Shown: in pieces, positions 1 to 13,025 of the stretch | How the letters are laid out: each line of letters opens with the position of its first letter | How positions within the stretch are numbered: the stretch's first letter is position 1 | DNA from: Acidobacteriota bacterium | Lineage (GTDB): Bacteria > Acidobacteriota > UBA6911 | DNA: 64,000 bases | Assembly: GCA_031271905.1 (NCBI GenBank) | Contig: JAISUT010000048.1 | Span: 1-64,000, forward strand | Direction of reading: 5' to 3' | Program-made: the position numbers and the translations under genes | Notes under the pieces: generated by a model | Databases searched by the model: none | What the model was told of the DNA's origin: nothing | What the model saw: only the letters and a program-made list of their open reading frames with translations

Positions 1-2616
1 AGGGAATTTACGGACTGTTCACGCTCGCGATGGGGGGCGCTGCGCAGACGTCTCAATCCCCTTTAATCGGGGCAAGGGAATTTACTTGCGCCGTAAACTC
101 GACCGTATCATCTACGGTCAGCAACGTCTCAATCCCCTTTAATCGGGGCAAGGGAATTTACACGGTTCCCAATGAATATCGGGACTACGACGACCTGTCT
201 CAATCCCCTTTAATCGGGGCAAGGGAATTTACATGAGGGAATCGACCGCGATTCCGACAACTGGATTGTCTCAATCCCCTTTAATCGGGGCAAGGGAATT
301 TACTGATTGACGCGATTCTTAATTTGAAGCCTTGGAGGTCTCAATCCCCTTTAATCGGGGCAAGGGAATTTACAAAAGACTAGATAAACAATCCAACGTA
401 TTTACCGTTGTCTCAATCCCCTTTAATCGGGGCAAGGGAATTTACTCCGCTCGGACGGCAATCGGAGGTCGCGATGAAAACAGTGTCTCAATCCCCTTTA
501 ATCGGGGCAAGGGAATTTACGTCAGAGTAAACTCCAATCCATCCACCAAAGCAAAGTCTCAATCCCCTTTCATCGGGGCAAGGGAATTTACGTTTCCGCT
601 TCACGCTTCACGCTTCACGCTTGTTTTGTCTCAATCCCCTTTAATCGGGGCAAGGGAATTTACTGGTTGCCCAGCAACGTGTTTGACGATTTTATCGCCG
701 TCTCAATCCCCTTTAATCGGGGCAAGGGAATTTACATCCTAGGATTTTGTACTAGTCCCTTAGACCCGTCGCGTCTCAATCCCCTTTAATCGGGGCAAGG
801 GAATTTACCCAGAGGAGACCAATTGGCTGATCGAAGGCTACGCGTCTCAATCCCCTTTAATCGGGGCAAGGGAATTTACAAAGTAAATGAGCATGGAGTT
901 TACGGAGGATTGTTTTCTCAATCCCCTTTAATCGGGGCAAGGGAATTTACGCAGAACTTCCGATTAAGTTTGGTTTCAACAAAAATTTCTCAATCCCCTT
1001 TAATCGGGGCAAGGGAATTTACACAGCAAATGGAAAAGAAAACATACACGCTGACCATTTCTCAATCCCCTTTAATCGGGGCAAGGGAATTTACTCACAC
1101 CGAAAAATGGGGTTTCTGGCGCCGAGAACATTTCTCAATCCCCTTTAATCGGGGCAAGGGAATTTACCCGTTAAATGAACGGAATCGCATTGGAGGTAAT
1201 TTTCTCAATCCCCTTTAATCGGGGCAAGGGAATTTACTGAAAGCGATTGAGACAGAGAGGAGCCAGAACGGTCGCTTCTCAATCCCCTTTAATCGGGGCA
1301 AGGGAATTTACCTCCCCGCTATCATCCACGCCATCCAGTCGTGGGGGTTCTCAATCCCCTTTAATCGGGGCAAGGGAATTTACTCCCCAAAACCTTTTGG
1401 TAAAACTTCTTGAAACTGATCTCAATCCCCTTTAATCGGGGCAAGGGAATTTACACGAAAAGCGTGGGCGCGTCAATGAGTTAGCAATGGATCTCAATCC
1501 CCTTTAATCGGGGCAAGGGAATTTACGGATTATGGCAATCGACATCAGCAAAATGAAGTTGATCTCAATCCCCTTTAATCGGGGCAAGGGAATTTACAGG
1601 GCCAAGACGCTAGAAAAGCGCGGATTGGCCGAATCTCAATCCCCTTTAATCGGGGCAAGGGAATTTACAATATGGCAAAACAAAAGTTCGACAGAGTGGC
1701 AGTTCATCTCAATCCCCTTTAATCGGGGCAAGGGAATTTACCCTATCTCTAAACGGTTGATTCTAAAGGGTTTAGGGAAATCTCAATCCCCTTTAATCGG
1801 GGCAAGGGAATTTACTTAGAGTAACACCCCGGTGGCGGGTGGAGAATGCCATATCTCAATCCCCTTTAATCGGGGCAAGGGAATTTACAAATTATCAAAG
1901 CAGTACCCCGGTGGCGTCTTGAGAAATCTCAATCCCCTTTAATCGGGGCAAGGGAATTTACTTCGATATTTTGGGTGGTTTCCGCGATTTTTTCCAGCAT
2001 CTCAATCCCCTTTAATCGGGGCAAGGGAATTTACTTAAACACACAAAACCCATAAAAACGGGAGGCGAATAATCTCAATCCCCTTTAATCGGGGCAAGGG
2101 AATTTACCTATCCCCTTAGGGCCCTATCAAGGCCCTAATCAAATCTCAATCCCCTTTAATCGGGGCAAGGGAATTTACCCGTAAATAAAAAGGCAAAGAA
2201 AAAGGCATCCAAGCCATCTCAATCCCCTTTAATCGGGGCAAGGGAATTTACACCGACCAGTCCGTTTTCTTTTCTGCTCCAAGCTCATCAGATCTCAATC
2301 CCCTTTAATCGGGGCAAGGGAATTTACGAGCTATTTCCGCTGATTTCTTCCATCCTGACGACATCTCAATCCCCTTTAATCGGGGCAAGGGAATTTACGC
2401 AGGATTTCTTCATCGGTGCTAAGTAATGGCTTGTCATCTCAATCCCCTTTAATCGGGGCAAGGGAATTTACTGAGCGTTTCGTAGTTTTTCATCGGGGCG
2501 CCTCATCAATCTCAATCCCCTTTAATCGGGGCAAGGGAATTTACACAAGTCCGACCTCGTGAGCGCGATCAACGAGGTGAATCTCAATCCCCTTTAATCG
2601 GGGCAAGGGAATTTAC
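1..2616 (-). CRISPR. Type III-A associated CRISPR array, 36 complete repeats, open at left edge
   Basis: A partial repeat lies at 1-11, followed by 36 complete 36-nt repeats; the first is 50-85 and the last 2581-2616. They alternate with 36 unique spacers of about 34-40 nt. The plus-strand repeat begins (G/T/A)TCTCAATCCCC and ends GGGAATTTAC. Read on the minus strand it ends in ATTGAGA plus one variable base, close to the ATTGAAAC-type 5' handle of type III crRNAs, so I infer minus-strand transcription, the same direction as the cas operon. The leader should then be at 2617 onwards and the newest spacers at the right end. Repeats are almost identical; the repeat at 556-591 has one internal A-to-C change. 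The first plus-strand base is G in the first 12 repeats, T in the next 7 and A in the last 17. Confidence 0.98.
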
Positions 2617-3002
2617 AGTATCCTCCGAAAATATGCGTCAAACCTAGTTGTCAAAGAACCCTTGCGGGCGGTGTCGGCGCAAATGCTATAACGTATGATC
2701 TTGCAGTCCTCAGCACCCACGCAAACATTTGAAATATAACACAAAATCGTCACGCGAACACCTCCCGGCAAGGAAATTGCCGTCCCAGCGCCATTGATTC
2801 ATCCTATCTTGCTGAAAACGAAGGAGAACCAAAACATCCCCCTCGTTAGCCAGCCCATGTCGCCAAAATACCACCTAGGCGCTCGCGCCAGAAAAAACTC
2901 ATCTCCCGTTCGCATCGCCCATCTTGGCTTGGAAACGACGCAATGCCACGCACATATCACGCTTCGACCACGAACGCCCTTCCTATTTCGACATCCCGCA
3001 GT
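2617..3002 (-). promoter_or_regulatory. Inferred CRISPR leader / intergenic region
   Basis: This 386-bp stretch without a convincing gene separates the last repeat from the end of the AAA-nuclease gene. It is richer in A+T than the cas genes, and its position fits a leader for an array read on the minus strand. A weak minus-strand promoter-like pair, TTGACA (2649-2654) and TATTTT (2628-2633) with a 15-bp gap, lies next to the first repeat. A 6-bp inverted repeat, CGGCAA / TTGCCG with a 5-nt loop, lies at 2766-2782. The short open frames here have no recognisable product. The leader assignment rests on repeat polarity and the location of the cas genes, not on a known leader motif. Confidence 0.6.
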
Positions 3003-4571
3003 TCAACATCCCAAGACGGTCACATCACCATGCTTTTTCCATTGGATGCGACGCGACCAAGGAAGCCTCTTCGACCGGGAGCGCCGATCAAAAATGACCA
3101 GGTAGCAGGGAACACCCTTGCCAAACCTGTCACGGTATTCGCGCACCTGCAAAAGCCCCTCCGCTAAAACATCCTTTCTGGAGTCGCGGTCGCGCAGGAG
3201 CTTTATTTCGACGATGTTCCTCTCGCCGCCATACTCCACCAGCAAATCCATCCGCCCGCGCCCGGACGCGCACTCCCGATCGATGCGCCCGCCTCCGTTG
3301 GTCACCCGTTGCAGGAATGCCATCAGGAGGAGGTGGGGGAACGCTTCCGTGTATTCCGCCGTCCCCTCCCAGATTTCGGAATGCCGCCTCCAGAATTTCT
3401 GGAATTCGCGGAGCAACCCGTCCATGTCCAGCGAACCGTCCTCTCGCCGCCAAGAGGACGCTGGCGGCGGGGTGGCGTTGTCGTGATAGCGGGAATTGAG
3501 GTTGCGGGTGAGGATTTCCGCGTAGATCGGATTCGCGATGGTGAAGTTCGTTTCCGGCGTCCACCGCACCAGCCCCAAGTCCAGCACATACTGCACGTCG
3601 TCGTCCTCTCTGCCGAAATCGCCGAGGTCGCCCGTCAGGATCGTCTGGATGACGCGCTTCACGCGGGGGTCGGAAAGCCGCTTGCCAAGGGCGTCAAGAT
3701 GCGTCTCACGGGCTTCGATCATCTGGGCGCGGGTTTCCTCCAGATGCCGGAGCGTCACCGTCTCCGCGCTGTCCGGCGGCAACAGGCGCATTGTCGCCCG
3801 CATGAACAGCGAGTTGACTATCCACGGCTGCCCACACGATTGCGCCCAAGCGTAATCCAGCGCCTCGTCGGTTATCTCCTGCCCGGTCTCCCGTGTGCGC
3901 TGCGCAAACAGGCGCGCGATGTCCGGGCGGGTGAAATTGCCAAGAACTGCGGAGTCGGCTTTGACGTTGAAAGGCGAGCCGGGGTTGGGCGCGACGCCTC
4001 CCTTGGCGGCGGTGATGTAGTCGCGCAGGTCGCGCATCCCCACCAAGGCGATGGACGTGGGGAACTTCCCGACGCCGCGCGTGGCGAAGCCTTCACGCAA
4101 CAACCGCAAGAAGGTGATGAGCGCCTCGTCTTGGAGCACATCCACCTCGTCAAAGAGCACGACCAGTTTCTTGGGCGCGACCATCGCGGCCCAGGAAGCC
4201 AGCATCTCCCCCATCATGACTTCCGGGATGCCTTCGGGGAGATCGGGGACGGGGATGTCCGTGGCGATGGCAGAGTCCCGGATGGCGGAGCATACGGCGG
4301 GAATCGCGCGTTTCGCGTCGGGGAAAGATTGGCAACGCTCCACGCTCACATAGCAGGCGAGCGCCTCCGTCCCGGCGTTGATCTCGCGCATCCAGTTTTG
4401 CAGGAACGTGGTCTTGCCCGTCTGCCGCGGCGCGTGGAGCACCCAGTAGAGGTTGTCGCTGATATAGCGGCCTAGTTGCGCCCCGACCAGCCGTTCCTCC
4501 GGCGGCAGCATGTAGTGGTCGTCAGGGTTGCACGGCCCGGTGGTGTTGAAAAATCGGACGGCTCGTTTCAT
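3003..4571 (-). CDS. AAA ATPase fused to PD-(D/E)XK nuclease-like domain, in the CRISPR operon
   Basis: A 522-aa protein. Residues about 20-350 form a P-loop ATPase of the AAA-ATPase-like type (similar to AAA_35): Walker A APRQTGKT at 47-54 and Walker B LVVLFDEVD. Near the C-terminus the pattern GRMDLLVE...IVEIKL is the D...ExK core of a PD-(D/E)XK nuclease fold. The start at 4571 was chosen because it follows the csm5 stop by 32 bp; upstream starts would run into csm5, although no good ribosome binding site is visible. It is the last gene before the leader, in line with the csm genes. ATPase/nuclease proteins of this family also occur away from CRISPR, so an accessory interference or defence role is inferred from location only. 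Confidence 0.8.
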   Translation of the reverse strand: MKRAVRFFNTTGPCNPDDHYMLPPEERLVGAQLGRYISDNLYWVLHAPRQTGKTTFLQNWMREINAGTEALACYVSVERCQSFPDAKRAIPAVCSAIRDSAIATDIPVPDLPEGIPEVMMGEMLASWAAMVAPKKLVVLFDEVDVLQDEALITFLRLLREGFATRGVGKFPTSIALVGMRDLRDYITAAKGGVAPNPGSPFNVKADSAVLGNFTRPDIARLFAQRTRETGQEITDEALDYAWAQSCGQPWIVNSLFMRATMRLLPPDSAETVTLRHLEETRAQMIEARETHLDALGKRLSDPRVKRVIQTILTGDLGDFGREDDDVQYVLDLGLVRWTPETNFTIANPIYAEILTRNLNSRYHDNATPPPASSWRREDGSLDMDGLLREFQKFWRRHSEIWEGTAEYTEAFPHLLLMAFLQRVTNGGGRIDRECASGRGRMDLLVEYGGERNIVEIKLLRDRDSRKDVLAEGLLQVREYRDRFGKGVPCYLVIFDRRSRSKRLPWSRRIQWKKHGDVTVLGC

Positions 4572-4603
4572 GCGATTGAGTCTACCATACGCGAAATCTG
4601 GTT

Positions 4604-5791
4604 TTAAGGAACTATCTGCACGAAAACCCATCCAAAAGGTTTTAGTCGATCCCACTGATTTTTTCGATCTGCCGCAAGCCACAAGGTTGTGGTTTTCTCT
4701 GCGTAGGAAGCGTGTTGCCCTCGGCCTTTCATGATTTTGATGGAACGTGGAGCATCGACCGTCACGCTTTCCGCACCAGAATGTCGTCCGACACGGAGCA
4801 AAAAACCTTCCCTCTTTTTTACCAACTCATCCAATTTGCCTCCAAGTTTCAGATGATTTTCAATACTGTGCACCCAGTTGTCGGCATAATGGTTTTCCTC
4901 TAAAACAGCGCATTCAGCTTTAAAACGATCATAATAGAATGTGTGACAAGCTTCGGCTATGCCTGAAAAATCAAACTGCAATTTTGGCAATTGTCCGCTA
5001 TTACCATCTTTCATTTCAATCGACCATTGTGTCGTGAAAAACTGATTCATATTGCCTGAAATGCACTCTAACAGCGTGTTGATGTTGCCCCCGGCCCTGT
5101 AGTTGTTCGGATGTTTTTTCCGATTGACTTGGAAGCAGATTCGCGTACGTATTGTTTCCTGCGATGCGCCATCTCCGATTTTAATGAAACGCAGAGGGTC
5201 GGTAAAAAAATCCTCGTTTTTTTGAAAACGATCTTGTATCATGAGTTGGCATTGTCGTTCGGCTTCTTTTCGTATTTCACGATCAGGTAAATCTCGAATT
5301 CCTTCCTTTGTTTTGACTACATAGCGTTTGTCATTACGGCACTTGTCCAACAATGCAGTACGAATCGCGCCTTTGACACTAGAGCCAGGCAGGATGGGTT
5401 GATTATTGCAGGGATTGAACGCCGTCCGTGCAATTTCCAATTTATTCAAGACAGTATCCTCTCGTTGCGTTATTTTACCTATTCGACTGTCATAAAACTT
5501 TTGCGCCTCTTCGACAACATCCGCATTGGACACGCCAATTCTGAGAGCAGTCTCTTTGTATTTATAGAAAAACTCCTGTATCTCACGCAATGAATTGTTC
5601 TTATCGACAATGCACGAGAATTCACGGCGCGCCTCGTCACCGAGGCTCAATAAGAGTCGCACTGGATCGAAGGTATAAAGTTTCTTTTTGTCGATCACGT
5701 AGTTGGTCGGCTCGAAATCCTCCCCGCAACCGATGTGGATGGGAGAGAGCGGAGTGACGCGGATGGTGTACGTTTTCAAAAATTCCTTCAT
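4604..5791 (-). CDS. csm5: Type III-A RAMP protein Csm5
   Basis: A 395-aa RAMP-superfamily subunit of the Csm complex, which caps the crRNA 3' end and is needed for crRNA maturation in studied systems. The N-terminus has the typical Csm5 opening (VTPLSPIHIGCGEDF), and the glycine-rich LPGSSVKGAIRTALL segment lies near residue 135. The start ATG at 5791 overlaps the csm4 stop by 4 bp (ATGA), so translation is probably coupled. The gene is visibly more AT-rich than its neighbours, with many A- and T-rich codons, which may reflect faster divergence or separate acquisition. Identity is firm from the motifs and from its place after csm4. Confidence 0.95.
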   Translation of the reverse strand: MKEFLKTYTIRVTPLSPIHIGCGEDFEPTNYVIDKKKLYTFDPVRLLLSLGDEARREFSCIVDKNNSLREIQEFFYKYKETALRIGVSNADVVEEAQKFYDSRIGKITQREDTVLNKLEIARTAFNPCNNQPILPGSSVKGAIRTALLDKCRNDKRYVVKTKEGIRDLPDREIRKEAERQCQLMIQDRFQKNEDFFTDPLRFIKIGDGASQETIRTRICFQVNRKKHPNNYRAGGNINTLLECISGNMNQFFTTQWSIEMKDGNSGQLPKLQFDFSGIAEACHTFYYDRFKAECAVLEENHYADNWVHSIENHLKLGGKLDELVKKREGFLLRVGRHSGAESVTVDAPRSIKIMKGRGQHASYAEKTTTLWLAADRKNQWDRLKPFGWVFVQIVP

Positions 5792-6771
5792 GCCGAAACC
5801 TCCACTCCCGCCAGCTTGATGCCGACGACCGGCGCGTATCCTTGCGCGACCGCTTCGGGCTGGCTGAAGGAAACACCGTTCAACCCCTGGCCGATGAAGC
5901 GTCGCGGCTCCGACATCCCGTCCTGCGGCGTGAACACGGCACCCGTGCGTGCCAACAGCAGCGGGCGCTTGAAGGGGTTTTCCGACAGCGCCGCCACGTC
6001 GCCGTGCCGCCCGAACCGGGTGAGCGGATGATAAAAACTTTTCGTGCGGTCGAAGCCCTGCCCTTGCGGGGCGCAGGGGGCGAGCGTCAACCATGCGTCG
6101 GCTCGGTCTGTCTCCGGCAGGGGGGCTTCCGCGCCTTCGATGTCGAACTTCCCCAGACCGATGGACGCATCGCGCCCGAAACCGCCCAGCCCGACGGCGG
6201 CGAGCGTTTCCAGCAGTTCCGCGGCAGACAGGCGGGCTTCGTCGAACACGGCGTGAAGGTCGAAGCGCATATCCGGGTGAAACCATATCTGCGGTTGGCT
6301 GTACGGCGCGAACATATCCTTGCCCGTAGTCCCAGTCAGCCGGTTGATGGTGTTGTGCGGTTGCGCGACGGTTTTTTGCACTGCCGTCGTTTTGGCGTGG
6401 CTGGAGTCAAATTGGCGCAGGATCGCATCGGCGGCTTCTGTGTCGTTATACGCCAGCCGTTGCCACGAGCGAAAATCGGACTCAAGTTCTTCCATCGGCA
6501 ACCAGCGCTTCTTCTTGAGCGCCTTGCGGTCTTCGGAGTTCGTTTCCCAAAACGATGACGGCACGGTCGGCAACGGCAGGAAGCCTTGCGGGAAGGCGTC
6601 GGAAAGCACTAAGAACGGACGGTCTTCGCCGTAGCCCTGCAAGCGTTCTGTGAGCCAGTCGTCGCCTAGGCGGTGCCGGAACGTCCAGCAGGCTTGGCCG
6701 AACAGGGTGTCCCCCGCAAGCGGCGTGCCGAAGGCGGTGCGGGGATGGATGGTGTAACGCGCTGTTTGCAT
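5788..6771 (-). CDS. csm4: Type III-A RAMP protein Csm4
   Basis: A 327-aa RAMP subunit that binds Cas10 and the crRNA 5' handle at the foot of the Csm complex. The N-terminus HPRTAFGTPLAGDTLFGQ is the characteristic Csm4 start, followed by a typical FLPLPTVP segment, and a glycine-rich GLGGFGRDASIGLG stretch lies near the middle. The stop overlaps the csm5 start, and the gene begins 13 bp after csm3. The handle it would contact varies in its last base along this array. Order and motifs make the call secure. Confidence 0.95.
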   Translation of the reverse strand: MQTARYTIHPRTAFGTPLAGDTLFGQACWTFRHRLGDDWLTERLQGYGEDRPFLVLSDAFPQGFLPLPTVPSSFWETNSEDRKALKKKRWLPMEELESDFRSWQRLAYNDTEAADAILRQFDSSHAKTTAVQKTVAQPHNTINRLTGTTGKDMFAPYSQPQIWFHPDMRFDLHAVFDEARLSAAELLETLAAVGLGGFGRDASIGLGKFDIEGAEAPLPETDRADAWLTLAPCAPQGQGFDRTKSFYHPLTRFGRHGDVAALSENPFKRPLLLARTGAVFTPQDGMSEPRRFIGQGLNGVSFSQPEAVAQGYAPVVGIKLAGVEVSA

Positions 6772-6784
6772 GGTTCACCTAGGT

Positions 6785-7522
6785 TCAATTTTCTTTCAGA
6801 TCGGGGAATGCTTTCACTGTTTCAAAATCAGCGGACTTATCCACGCCGTTGATTTTGAGTCCGGCGAATCGCACCTTGCCGTAGCCGCGCGAACCGGAGC
6901 CGCCCAGGCTGTCCAGCTCGATGAGCTTCAAGCCTTCGAGAACAGTTTGCAACAGCGCGTCACCGTCGCCGTCCAGTTGCTTGAGCGAAAGTTTGAAAAC
7001 GAACTTCGCGCCCGCTGGAACGCGCTCGGTGTGACGCGGATGGTCGGCCACGCCGCTGATGCGGTTGATGACGTTCTCGCTTTTGACTTCGGTCAGCAAC
7101 TGGTTGTCCTCGCGCACCCTGTTCTTCCATCCTTCCTCCAAGGCGCAATCCCAGAAGGCGAGCCGCGAAGGGCCGAGTTCTTTTACCAGCGTCTTGTCGT
7201 CCTTGGCGTCGCCGCCGCCGATGCCGAACAGTTGCAGGATGGGCTTGATGGCGTCCTTCTGTGCTTCCGATGCTGTTGGATTTGTATAGTCTTTCGCCCC
7301 CAGCGGTTTTTCCTGCACCGCGCCGCTACGCCATTCCAGCAGGCTGCGCATCTTCCCCTTGAGGCTGGAGCCGGGGATGTACGGCTCGCCGGTGAGAGGA
7401 TGCTTGATGACGGTGTTGTCCACGCCGCCGATGTGCATTTCCGAATCGCCCGCTCCGATGCGCAGACCGGTCAGCACTTCCAAGGCGGCTTCGATGGTTA
7501 CGATATTGGTTAGTTGCGGCAT
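6785..7522 (-). CDS. csm3: Type III-A RAMP protein Csm3, target-RNA cleaving backbone
   Basis: A 245-aa Csm3, the repeated backbone subunit that cuts target RNA at 6-nt intervals. The family motif HIGGVDNTVIKHP carries the catalytic aspartate at residue 35, and IPGSSLKGKMRSLLE follows, so the ribonuclease site looks intact. A C-terminal glycine-rich loop, LGGSGSRGYGKV, is also typical. The gene starts 2 bp after the csm2 stop. Length matches the usual Csm3. Confidence 0.97.
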   Translation of the reverse strand: MPQLTNIVTIEAALEVLTGLRIGAGDSEMHIGGVDNTVIKHPLTGEPYIPGSSLKGKMRSLLEWRSGAVQEKPLGAKDYTNPTASEAQKDAIKPILQLFGIGGGDAKDDKTLVKELGPSRLAFWDCALEEGWKNRVREDNQLLTEVKSENVINRISGVADHPRHTERVPAGAKFVFKLSLKQLDGDGDALLQTVLEGLKLIELDSLGGSGSRGYGKVRFAGLKINGVDKSADFETVKAFPDLKEN

Positions 7523-7524
7523 GG

Positions 7525-8031
7525 TTATCTCTCCTCCGCTTTGTAAAAGCCCATGAAGGCTTCCATGAAAAGTTTTGCTTGTTTCAACGTTTCCGGGCTG
7601 ACGATAGCGCGAACGACATGGGTTAAAAGCTTCTCGAAGCCTTCACCCACATGCTCACGGCCCTTGGCGTAAGTGACCTTGGCGCACAACATCTTGATGA
7701 AGGGCGCAAGTTCGGTGTATTTCGCACTACGGTCGACGCCGTGCTCGAACACTTTGTCGTGCCACATGACCAATTCGTCGTAAAACTTGCGGAGTTGGCT
7801 GGATTTGTTCTTTCCCAAGTTTTTTTCCCGCTTCCAGCCTTCCCGTCTCTTTGACCAATGGCCATCTTCAAAGATGGCCTGCGCCATGCTTTGCGCAATT
7901 TCATCAAAGAGTTTTGCATTGATGTTTTCACCAAATATGACTTGCGCAGTATCGACCGCGGGCGGTTGAGCACGGTCGTAACCGCCGCCTTGTTGTGAAC
8001 GGCTGCCTTGCGGGCGTTGTTGATAGTTCAT
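7525..8031 (-). CDS. csm2: Type III-A small subunit Csm2
   Basis: A 168-aa mostly alpha-helical small subunit of the Csm complex, which lines the target-RNA channel. The first 25 residues are Gln/Gly/Arg-rich and probably disordered. The rest matches Csm2, including the conserved SSQLRKFYDELVMW segment and a C-terminal LKQAKLFMEAFMGFYKAEE helix. It lies 9 bp after cas10 and 2 bp before csm3. Confidence 0.95.
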   Translation of the reverse strand: MNYQQRPQGSRSQQGGGYDRAQPPAVDTAQVIFGENINAKLFDEIAQSMAQAIFEDGHWSKRREGWKREKNLGKNKSSQLRKFYDELVMWHDKVFEHGVDRSAKYTELAPFIKMLCAKVTYAKGREHVGEGFEKLLTHVVRAIVSPETLKQAKLFMEAFMGFYKAEER

Positions 8032-8040
8032 ACTGGCTCC

Positions 8041-10689
8041 TTATCGTTTGCTGTAAAAATAGTTGAATAGCGGAATGCGGAATCGCCCTTTCAATTTCCC
8101 GATGTTCTCGCCGAAAACCTTGGTCAACTCGATTTGCGCCGCATCCCGCTTGTCCTTGTCGAGCTTGTCCACCACGTAGCGCCGGGTGCGGTAGGCGAAG
8201 CGGCTGTGCCACATGACCGACTCCGGCGTGTCCCGCCCGGCCAATGCAACCAGTTGCAACAGGCCGTAGATGTAGCCGGTGGAGAGGTTGTACACGGTGG
8301 CGCAACGCCTCGCTTCCTTTTCTAGCGCGGCGAGTTGCTGCCAGTCCTTCCAAGGGACGACCTCGTTATACAGGCAGACCGAGTTCTTTGCCTTCCGACC
8401 GCCCGACTCATAGCCCTTGGCCGCGTCCAGCGCCTCTTCCGCGCGTTCTGCCAAGGCATGCACCGGGTGCTTGGGCTTGGTCATGACCAGCCCCGCCGAG
8501 AAATGGATTTCCGGGTTTTCCGTGACGTAGGCTTTGAACCGTTCCGCCATGTCGGCGGCAAGCTGTTGCGTGCGGTGCCAAGGGCCGACCATGAAGAAGT
8601 CGTCGCCGCCGGCGAAGACGGTGTAGACGTCGGGGTATTTCTCCTTGCAAAACGCCGGCAGCCAAACGGCGAAAAAGGCGTTCATCTGACGGGAGAGTGC
8701 CGCCATTTTCGCGAAAGTGCTTTTCCTGCCCAGCCCTTTCTGGAAAATCTGGCCGAGGTTATCGACATCGCCTTTCAAAGTGGAAAGGGCGACCTGCCCG
8801 ACCCACTTTTCCACGCCGTCCGCCGTCTTTTCCAAGCGCCTGTCCTCGCAGGCGATGTGGCCGAAAGTCTTTGGGGCGCCGACTTGGATGTTCTCGTCGT
8901 CATCGCCGTCAATCCCTTGGTACTTGCCGCCGACTTGTTGGTCTTGCCGCGTGAAGTGCGGCACGTAGGCATTGATGTAGCGGCGGGCGTAGCCGTGCCA
9001 GAGCGTGTCGGAAAGGTTCTCGGGCAGGCTGAAATCCCAGCAACGCGGCAACCTGCCGCTTGCCGCCAGTTCGCCGAACCTGCCCGTTTCATCCTCGTCG
9101 TGCGTGAAGCCGATGCGGTAGCCGAAGACGGTCGTTTCCAGCACAGTGACGCTGTTTGCGCGCAGTTCGGCGTCGTCGCGCACGACAAGCAGGCGGTCTT
9201 TGCTTGCAACGGACTCGCCGATTTTTATCTGGTCGCGGGAAAGCGCCGCAGAACCCGATTCGTCAGCGGGCAGGTGGTTGTTGTATTTGCAAACCCCGTG
9301 CGGATAGGCGACATTGAAAACGGCATGTGGCGCTTCCGTTGCGGCCAAGTCGAAGCGCGTCAGCTTCTCCCGCTCCAAATCTTCGAACAGGGCTGTCATC
9401 AAGCCCGCGAACTTTTCCGCCAAGAAATCGTTGCAACTGGCGGCCTTAACTGCCAATCCCAACCCCGCTTGCCCGAAGGCGTGCCGCAAAAACCAGCCGT
9501 TCAGCTCCCCGCGCACAGCTTGCAGCCGTTCCCGCGCGTCATCGGTGTTGGGCGCGACTATCAGGAACTTGCCCGCCGCGTTGACGATCTGCGACGTGGA
9601 GGGGAGCTCCAACGCCTCCAGAACGCGCAACGCCGCCAGCTCCGTGAAAAGCGACACCATGAAGGAGCGTCCGCGCAGGAGCTTCGCCGCGTTCTTGTTG
9701 GTTTCCGCGTCATCGGAAAATATGAAATCCTGGATGCCGAAAAAGTCGCCCTGCACCAGCAGGAATTTCTCATCGCCCCAGTCGGCGCGGGTCTCGTGAC
9801 GGCGGACGGCATCTTCGCCGGACAAGCCGTCCTGCGCGATATGCCAGCGCCAAAGCGCCGTAGCGAAGGCCGCCGTCGCCTTGGAATGGTCGTAGAGCGA
9901 GACTTCCGGCCTGACGCCGAAGGCTGTGGCCGATGGGATCGCCTGCGTGTAGCTTTGCCAGAGCGTGTCGAAATGGTCGAGCCACAGCGGCCACGACTTG
10001 CGGTGCGATGCCGGGATGTTTCGTAACGCCGCGAGGAATCCATCCCACAGTTCTTTGTATTCCTGTTGCGCCGGTTCGTTCTCCGCCGGTTCATAACCGT
10101 CGCGCTTCACAGGGAAAAGGTTTTCCGGCGCGAGCGGTTTCAACAGATAGCGCCAATCGAACCGGAGAGGCGCTTGCGCCTCCAGTCGCACTTGTTCGAA
10201 CAGGGCCAGTTGCCGCGCCTGGTAATGGTTGCGACCGGTTGTTTCGTTCGGCTTTGTGTCGTCGCCGTCGTTGTATTCGTCGAACTCCTCGCGCTCGAAG
10301 CCGGAGGCGAGGCGGTCGGCAGTGGCGATCATCCATTGCAGGAGCGTCTGCGGGCGGTGGTGCATGGCGGCGGCGTTGATGATGGAGTCGGTGATGTCCC
10401 GGTCGGCATCCCGCCTGCCCGCGAACGGGAACGTCTCTGCCCGGATCAGGTCGGGCGCGCTTTTTTCGACCTCGTCCATGAACAGGCCGGTGAAGGCGGC
10501 GTGCCTGTGGCTGTGGTAGCCTCCCCGCTCGTGCCATTTGCAATACAGCGTGACATGCGCATCCAGCCGGTCGTTGCGTAGCGCAGCGCGTTCGGCGAAT
10601 TTGCCCAGGTCGTGCGCGAGGGCGGCAAACGCGACGCGGCAAGAGGCGTCCAGCATGTCAGGCGTTGGAATGTTGTCGATGTTCCCCAC
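8041..10689 (-). CDS. cas10: Cas10/Csm1 with HD nuclease and GGDD cyclase motifs
   Basis: The 882-aa large subunit of the Csm effector. An N-terminal HD motif (ALAHDLGKF, His26-Asp27) predicts single-stranded DNase activity. The Palm domain keeps an intact AGGDDFF motif at residues 694-697, predicting cyclic oligoadenylate synthesis on target-RNA binding. The start is a GTG at 10689, chosen because GGAGAAC sits 4-10 bp upstream; the frame stays open further up, but those residues do not resemble Cas10. The gene lies 70 bp after cas6 and just before csm2. The cyclic oligoadenylates it should make match the CARF-HEPN gene at the head of the operon. Confidence 0.96.
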   Translation of the reverse strand: MGNIDNIPTPDMLDASCRVAFAALAHDLGKFAERAALRNDRLDAHVTLYCKWHERGGYHSHRHAAFTGLFMDEVEKSAPDLIRAETFPFAGRRDADRDITDSIINAAAMHHRPQTLLQWMIATADRLASGFEREEFDEYNDGDDTKPNETTGRNHYQARQLALFEQVRLEAQAPLRFDWRYLLKPLAPENLFPVKRDGYEPAENEPAQQEYKELWDGFLAALRNIPASHRKSWPLWLDHFDTLWQSYTQAIPSATAFGVRPEVSLYDHSKATAAFATALWRWHIAQDGLSGEDAVRRHETRADWGDEKFLLVQGDFFGIQDFIFSDDAETNKNAAKLLRGRSFMVSLFTELAALRVLEALELPSTSQIVNAAGKFLIVAPNTDDARERLQAVRGELNGWFLRHAFGQAGLGLAVKAASCNDFLAEKFAGLMTALFEDLEREKLTRFDLAATEAPHAVFNVAYPHGVCKYNNHLPADESGSAALSRDQIKIGESVASKDRLLVVRDDAELRANSVTVLETTVFGYRIGFTHDEDETGRFGELAASGRLPRCWDFSLPENLSDTLWHGYARRYINAYVPHFTRQDQQVGGKYQGIDGDDDENIQVGAPKTFGHIACEDRRLEKTADGVEKWVGQVALSTLKGDVDNLGQIFQKGLGRKSTFAKMAALSRQMNAFFAVWLPAFCKEKYPDVYTVFAGGDDFFMVGPWHRTQQLAADMAERFKAYVTENPEIHFSAGLVMTKPKHPVHALAERAEEALDAAKGYESGGRKAKNSVCLYNEVVPWKDWQQLAALEKEARRCATVYNLSTGYIYGLLQLVALAGRDTPESVMWHSRFAYRTRRYVVDKLDKDKRDAAQIELTKVFGENIGKLKGRFRIPLFNYFYSKR

Positions 10690-10759
10690 AGGCGTTCTCC
10701 TTCGTTTTCCAAGCTCCTTGTGTTCGAGCGGTGCCGAGAGCCACGGGCGCGAGGCCGCC

Positions 10760-11731
10760 TCACAGCGGCTGCACTTCGACCTGTCCCAGCCCGAACAAGG
10801 TCTGCTTGCCCAAGTGCACCTTTTCGGCATATCGCAGCAAAGGCATGAATTCTGTCAAACTTCCTTCGTACAGCGCCTCGCCGCACATGCCGCTGAGCGA
10901 GACCTTCTGCCGCTGCCGGTTGCTGTAGCGTTGCAACTCCCGCCAACGCAGCCGGGACTCGGCCAGCCGCACCGATTCGGCGCGGCGCGCAAGGCCGCCG
11001 TAGTCGAGCTCCGGCGCCCCGGCGCCGTATGCCGCCTCCAGCGCCGACACCCGCCGCAACGCCGCCCGCACCAGCACATGGAAGGGGAGTTCGTCCTGCA
11101 GGCTGTTCTCCTGCTTCAGGCGCAACGGCGTGCGCAGACGGACGCGGAGCCGCCCCACCGGTTCGTCCGGCGGCGCGCCCATGCCGATTTCCGTCCCCGG
11201 CGCGTCAGACCGGAACATGCCGCTCGCCGCGTCATACGCCAGCTCCTTCCCCGCCATGATCTTTTCCAAGGCGAACCGTCCCGCGCCGCGCTTCGTCCAA
11301 GGGCCGACCCCCGACTCCCCCATCGCCTGGACGCTGCGAACGAGATAGGGGAGGAACTCCCTCCCGCGCCCGAACACCAGCAGGGAGAACTCCCACGCCT
11401 CGCCAGCCTTGCCGGAACCGTCGCCGCGCCGTTCGGGTCGTCCGTCCAACCGCCGGTCGGGATCGCCAGGCCGGATGACCAGCGGATGGGGCCGGGCGTT
11501 GACCGTGCCGCCATGCTCCCGCCCCTCATACGTCTCCGTCGCGAAAAGCCATGCGTAGGCGCAGGTCTTGCCCAAGACGCAGGTGGGGCATTGCTGGCTG
11601 CGCAGCATGCACGTCGTCTGTCGCAACGCCCAGCCGAAGGCACCACGCAGGGTGGATCCGGTGTAGCCTTGCAGGAACGCATCGGACGTCCAGCGGCAAC
11701 GGAATGTGTATGTGTGCAAAAGAACGCTCAC
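10760..11731 (-). CDS. cas6: Cas6-type pre-crRNA processing endoribonuclease
   Basis: A 323-aa RAMP endoribonuclease of the larger PF10040-type Cas6 family. The N-terminus has LQGYTGSTLRGAFGWALR followed by a cysteine cluster (CMLRSQQCPTCVLGKTC) typical of that family. The C-terminal glycine-rich loop LGKQTLFGLGQVEV is the RAMP signature. It should cut the repeat transcript to leave the 8-nt handle. It starts 13 bp after the CARF-HEPN stop. The catalytic residues cannot be assigned from sequence alone. Confidence 0.9.
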   Translation of the reverse strand: MSVLLHTYTFRCRWTSDAFLQGYTGSTLRGAFGWALRQTTCMLRSQQCPTCVLGKTCAYAWLFATETYEGREHGGTVNARPHPLVIRPGDPDRRLDGRPERRGDGSGKAGEAWEFSLLVFGRGREFLPYLVRSVQAMGESGVGPWTKRGAGRFALEKIMAGKELAYDAASGMFRSDAPGTEIGMGAPPDEPVGRLRVRLRTPLRLKQENSLQDELPFHVLVRAALRRVSALEAAYGAGAPELDYGGLARRAESVRLAESRLRWRELQRYSNRQRQKVSLSGMCGEALYEGSLTEFMPLLRYAEKVHLGKQTLFGLGQVEVQPL

Positions 11732-11744
11732 GAGATACCGCCGA

Positions 11745-13025
<1,281 letters not shown>

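Follow-up and report, generated by a model that had tools for sequence, protein, structure and literature searches.

The base at the spacer-side edge of the repeat in a CRISPR array changes in three pure blocks, which run in order from an ancestral oldest block towards the leader, and this base behaves as a copied position of the repeat. Copying of the leader-proximal repeat in an ordinary type III-A array very probably explains these blocks. The array lies at the start of the window (the whole 64,000-nucleotide stretch analysed) and comprises 36 complete repeats (50-2616), each consisting of an edge base N followed by TCTCAATCCCCTTTAATCGGGGCAAGGGAATTTAC.

Blocks of the edge base and direction of the array

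On the plus strand, the complete repeats begin with 12 in which N is G, continue with 7 that have T and finish with 17 that have A, with zero reversions (GGGGGGGGGGGG TTTTTTT AAAAAAAAAAAAAAAAA in array order), and a recount reproduces exactly the numbers given by the first-pass annotation of this DNA. With the crRNA read from the minus strand, the oldest block (50-879) carries the handle ATTGAGAC, the middle block (915-1383) carries ATTGAGAA and the youngest block (1419-2616), which adjoins the leader, carries ATTGAGAT. The remaining 35 bases of the repeat are invariant in 35 of the 36 repeats, and the sole internal deviation is an A-to-C substitution, carried by the repeat at 556-591 (minus strand); this substitution was not inherited and serves as an internal control. 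Shuffling the same edge bases would give only three runs with P ~1.4e-14 (6 of ~4.3e14 arrangements). The block pattern is real and clean, and is a fresh example of a known phenomenon. The first base of the window is also the first base of its contig and falls inside a repeat (partial repeat agggaatttac, 1-11, minus strand), so that the array is truncated on its trailer (old) side, its oldest part and trailer are missing and the G block had at least 12 repeats. A scan of the whole assembly (3.4 Mb in 67 contigs) for this repeat found no second copy elsewhere. Two neighbouring spacers (1816-1852 and 1889-1925) have the 12 bases ACCCCGGTGGCG in common on the same strand and perhaps correspond to related targets.

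To obtain comparison arrays from other genomes, genome contigs were scanned for the pattern of tandem TCAATCCCC..GGGG units; with a few arrays added from this phylum and from viral contigs, the set of similar repeats amounts to 90 arrays and 1206 repeats once duplicates are removed. None of the other genomes or viral contigs searched contains the exact repeat, and neither the array nor cas10 is present in the congener genomes examined. Of the 76 comparison arrays that share this edge geometry, 75 have G as their majority edge base; judged from these sequences, G is therefore ancestral, as carried by the oldest block here, and T and A are derived and lie on the leader side.

The high-coordinate end of the array carries the leader, and G, T and A thus follow each other from old to young. 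This direction is drawn from two features of the comparison arrays. Firstly, the right flanks of several of them carry a motif such as CGCGCAAC..CACCTTGAAAACTAA, which resembles by eye the motif CCCGCAAGGGTTCTTTGACAACTAGG in the right flank of our array (leader, 2617-2690, minus strand). Secondly, degenerate end repeats occur mostly at the left end (11/36 at the left versus 4/36 at the right). A promoter scan of the leader gave nothing above chance. The placement of the leader in the first-pass annotation is thus backed by the leader/trailer asymmetry of other arrays, and the time order that it proposed gains independent backing from G being the conserved ancestral base.

Inheritance of repeat variants by copying

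In the copying model, Cas1-Cas2 would duplicate the entire 36-base leader-adjacent repeat at each acquisition, the terminal base on the spacer side of the leader-proximal repeat would have been replaced twice (from C to A and from A to T on the crRNA strand), and each change would pass by copying to all later repeats. The array shows the pattern of copy-inherited variants, in that every repeat on the leader side of a switch carries the derived base with no reversion. The variant at 556-591 left no descendants, as expected if this repeat no longer adjoined the leader when it changed. Block switches, counted only where runs of at least two repeats stand on either side, are also seen at seven internal columns of the comparison arrays (L067, L109, L130 twice, L163, L173 and L176), and inherited changes of the repeat are therefore ordinary. 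The earlier proposal that the leader-proximal repeat is copied, and its changes inherited, is thus upheld, both by the three pure runs and by these seven inherited switches. A precedent comes from a Legionella I-F array, which, when regrown from a last repeat with a different final base, shows that base throughout (PMC7056967). In three of the comparison arrays (L130, L173 and L163) a variant block is followed on the leader side by the original base again, which simple copying does not explain and for which recombination is likely.

At the edge, no such switch occurs in 1022 adjacent repeat pairs of the comparison arrays. Two edge switches within 35 steps are unusual against this background (2/35 versus 0/1022, Fisher p ~0.001), the comparison being post hoc. 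The notion that the edge is a general hotspot of inherited switches was dropped, as none was found in the 90 arrays.

In type I-E systems, the last base of the repeat comes from the prespacer. The first-pass annotation had offered a similar alternative for this array, in which the edge base comes with the incoming prespacer and the blocks reflect a shift in capture preference; on this view there would have been two shifts, either of preference or of the adaptation machinery itself. Such a supply is favoured by the genome's sole Cas1, a Cas4-Cas1 fusion that belongs to a type with PAM selection on the spacer side (PMC10504553), and by a weak dependence of the first spacer base on the block (permutation p = 0.024, uncorrected, with 24 positions tested, among which another position gave 0.007). 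However, there is no block effect at the other spacer positions near the edge, and a base taken from the prespacer would be expected to vary spacer by spacer or to follow one PAM, whereas we observe three pure blocks; supply by prespacers would have to be 100% pure for three successive different bases, the conserved repeat base G among them. Edges that do look prespacer-supplied are intermixed, for example those of L178 (GAGGGGAGA) and, similarly, of the I-E-like L105. We therefore consider per-spacer supply of the edge base highly improbable here. After correction, block-specific spacer composition over the 24 positions is not convincing, including the effect on the first base; this effect, which copying alone does not predict, counts weakly against copying as the whole account. 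Protospacer searches returned no matches or chance-level matches in phage/plasmid records, viral contigs (20-24 base seeds, six spacers) and 15 genomes of the family. In L178, only purines precede CTTCAATCCCC, with G and A intermixed along the array as if supplied by the prespacer, and this array also has an internal G/A block.

The type III-A locus, its adaptation genes and the crRNA handle

The array is part of a complete type III-A effector locus (csm2-5, cas10, cas6 and csx1), all of whose genes are on the minus strand. It comprises csm5 (4604-6286; PADLOC Csm5, 3.9e-35), csm4 (5788-6771; PADLOC Csm4, 1.4e-108), csm3 (6785-7522; PADLOC Csm3, 1.9e-64), csm2 (7525-8031; Pfam Csm2_III-A, 5.2e-10), cas10/csm1 (8041-10830; PADLOC Cas10a, 1.5e-139), cas6 (10760-11731; PADLOC Cas6, 1.3e-82) and a csx1/csm6-type CARF-HEPN effector gene with an RNALAH motif (11745-12998; PADLOC, 1.2e-127). 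The type III-A assignment follows from Cas10/Csm1 occurring together with csm2-csm5, from the HD and GGDD motifs of Cas10, and from the accompanying Cas6 and CARF-HEPN effector. The HD motif is at residue 73 and GGDD at 741, the motifs predictive of DNase activity and cyclic oligoadenylate synthesis, respectively. An AAA ATPase gene (3003-4682, minus strand; Pfam AAA_22) lies between the leader and the csm operon and overlaps the csm5 reading frame by ~80 bases.

Cas1 and cas2 are absent from the csm operon and the surroundings of the array. The single Cas1 in the genome, the above Cas4-Cas1 fusion (L033:9778-12114; contig C65:37777-40113), is of the type I-G kind and is accompanied by a Cas2 gene. 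In the 60 kb examined around it (positions 8-68 kb of contig C65) there is no array, and no recognised effector genes are nearby. This Cas4-Cas1 and Cas2 module presumably serves the III-A array in trans. Homologues of the fusion that are ~70% identical occur in three family members without this cas10. Directly upstream of cas2 (L033:6985-9726) is encoded a 913-residue protein with polysaccharide deacetylase, caspase-like peptidase and TPR domains. At the end of another contig (L049:7315-10900; contig C15), a cmr1-like RAMP gene sits beside the gene for a 692-residue unidentified protein, together with an apparent nucleotidyltransferase/HEPN pair, and this locus is possibly a remnant of type III-B.

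The predicted 8-base crRNA 5' handle, with which the repeat ends on the minus strand, is ATTGAGAN and follows a hairpin. The predicted fold of this hairpin is unchanged by the edge base, and an effect of the edge on the hairpin is excluded at the level of prediction. The first-pass annotation had placed the edge base at a handle position inspected by Cas10/Csm4. This does not agree with the structures of the S. epidermidis and T. onnurineus Csm complexes, where the segment from -5 to -2 is the one inspected and is held ready for pairing, with the -1 nucleotide flipped out (PMC10289348), nor with the Lactobacillus Csm complex, which is activated equally whether the first anti-tag nucleotide matches or not (PMC7214462). 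As the -1 nucleotide is unread in the solved Csm complexes, there is no sign of altered target recognition, and the change of the edge base probably has no effect on interference.

Origin of the two changes and comparison with known systems

Copying explains how each edge base spread, and the origin of the two changes is a separate matter. One account is that two plain point mutations, unlinked to integration, arose in the leader-proximal repeat and were inherited by copying. Other arrays show comparable inherited switches at internal positions, several per 1100 acquisitions, although both mutations would have hit one and the same of 36 positions, which is conserved as G elsewhere and is the position for which the above post hoc contrast was obtained; we judge the chances of this account to be about even.

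Both switches are at the spacer-side edge, the site of the second and less accurate cut by Cas1-Cas2. For type I-G Cas4/1, spacer-side integration is correct in 60-70% of cases versus 80-90% at the leader side (PMC10504553). In S. thermophilus, the second site is displaced by one base in ruler mutants, to position 35 or 37 (PMC6895254). If the second cut were to slip one base inward, the new leader-proximal repeat would consist of r1..r35 followed by the first base of the incoming spacer, a terminal base that ordinary 36-base duplications would hand on. Such a slip would account for the edge being hit and not another position. The spacers at both switches are 35 bases long, on the short side of the array mean of 36.3, yet this length is frequent in the array. 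A one-base slip, in place of two point mutations at one site, is thus plausible but unproven and the weaker part of our reading; the blocks can be explained without it, and were it general, edge switches would be expected elsewhere, so that their absence in 1022 steps counts against it. The fuller scenario, in which the III-A array is served in trans by the I-G-like Cas4-Cas1/Cas2 and occasional slips write a base of the invader into the repeat terminus, which is then inherited, is accordingly put forward as a tentative suggestion.

The changes could also have come about by recombination, either because array segments carrying different repeat variants were fused or because a deletion between repeats moved a variant one next to the leader, with subsequent regrowth through copying. 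Array collapse, regrowth and conversion to a variant last repeat have been demonstrated in Legionella (PMC7056967), and variant blocks flanked on both sides by the original base suggest recombination in L130 and L173. In our genome, however, no second array of this repeat exists, there is no reversion and the order G-T-A runs straight towards the leader, which makes recombination unlikely as the source of these two changes.

Whatever the origin of the switches, copying makes them internal time marks within the array, and at least 23 later acquisitions used repeats without the conserved G. Acquisition can thus go on after loss of the conserved nucleotide that second-site integration attacks, as seen here without experiment. 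If slips are the cause, they would show how repeats and handles drift between systems, and repeats would evolve by acquisition error and not by mutation alone. The interest of the array is modest and lies in the position of the switches and in continued acquisition after loss of the integration-site base.

In its effector gene set and predicted 8-base handle, the locus is like the type III-A (Csm) systems of S. epidermidis and T. onnurineus, but unlike them it has an operon without cas1-cas2, its only Cas1 is the Cas4-Cas1 fusion on another contig, and an AAA ATPase gene stands beside the array. With respect to acquisition, a close counterpart is the S. thermophilus II-A system, in which substitution of repeat position 36, the same position and the nucleotide attacked in second-site integration, lowers the efficiency of that step in vitro (PMC6895254), whereas here at least 23 natural acquisitions took place with T or A replacing G (attacked strand). 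In Legionella pneumophila I-F, a final-base change is likewise inherited by all repeats copied from it, as found by experiment and inferred for the natural strain Alcoy (PMC7056967); there the variant pre-existed in the trailer repeat, which became the template after array collapse, whereas here two successive changes occurred within one continuous array. Single-base repeat variants are likewise found in S. agalactiae CRISPR1 and other arrays (PMC4466440) and in L067, L109, L130, L163, L173 and L176, but all of these are internal, whereas those described here are at the spacer-side edge. Thus, inherited switches of the repeat are known biology, and it is the position of both switches that is less ordinary.
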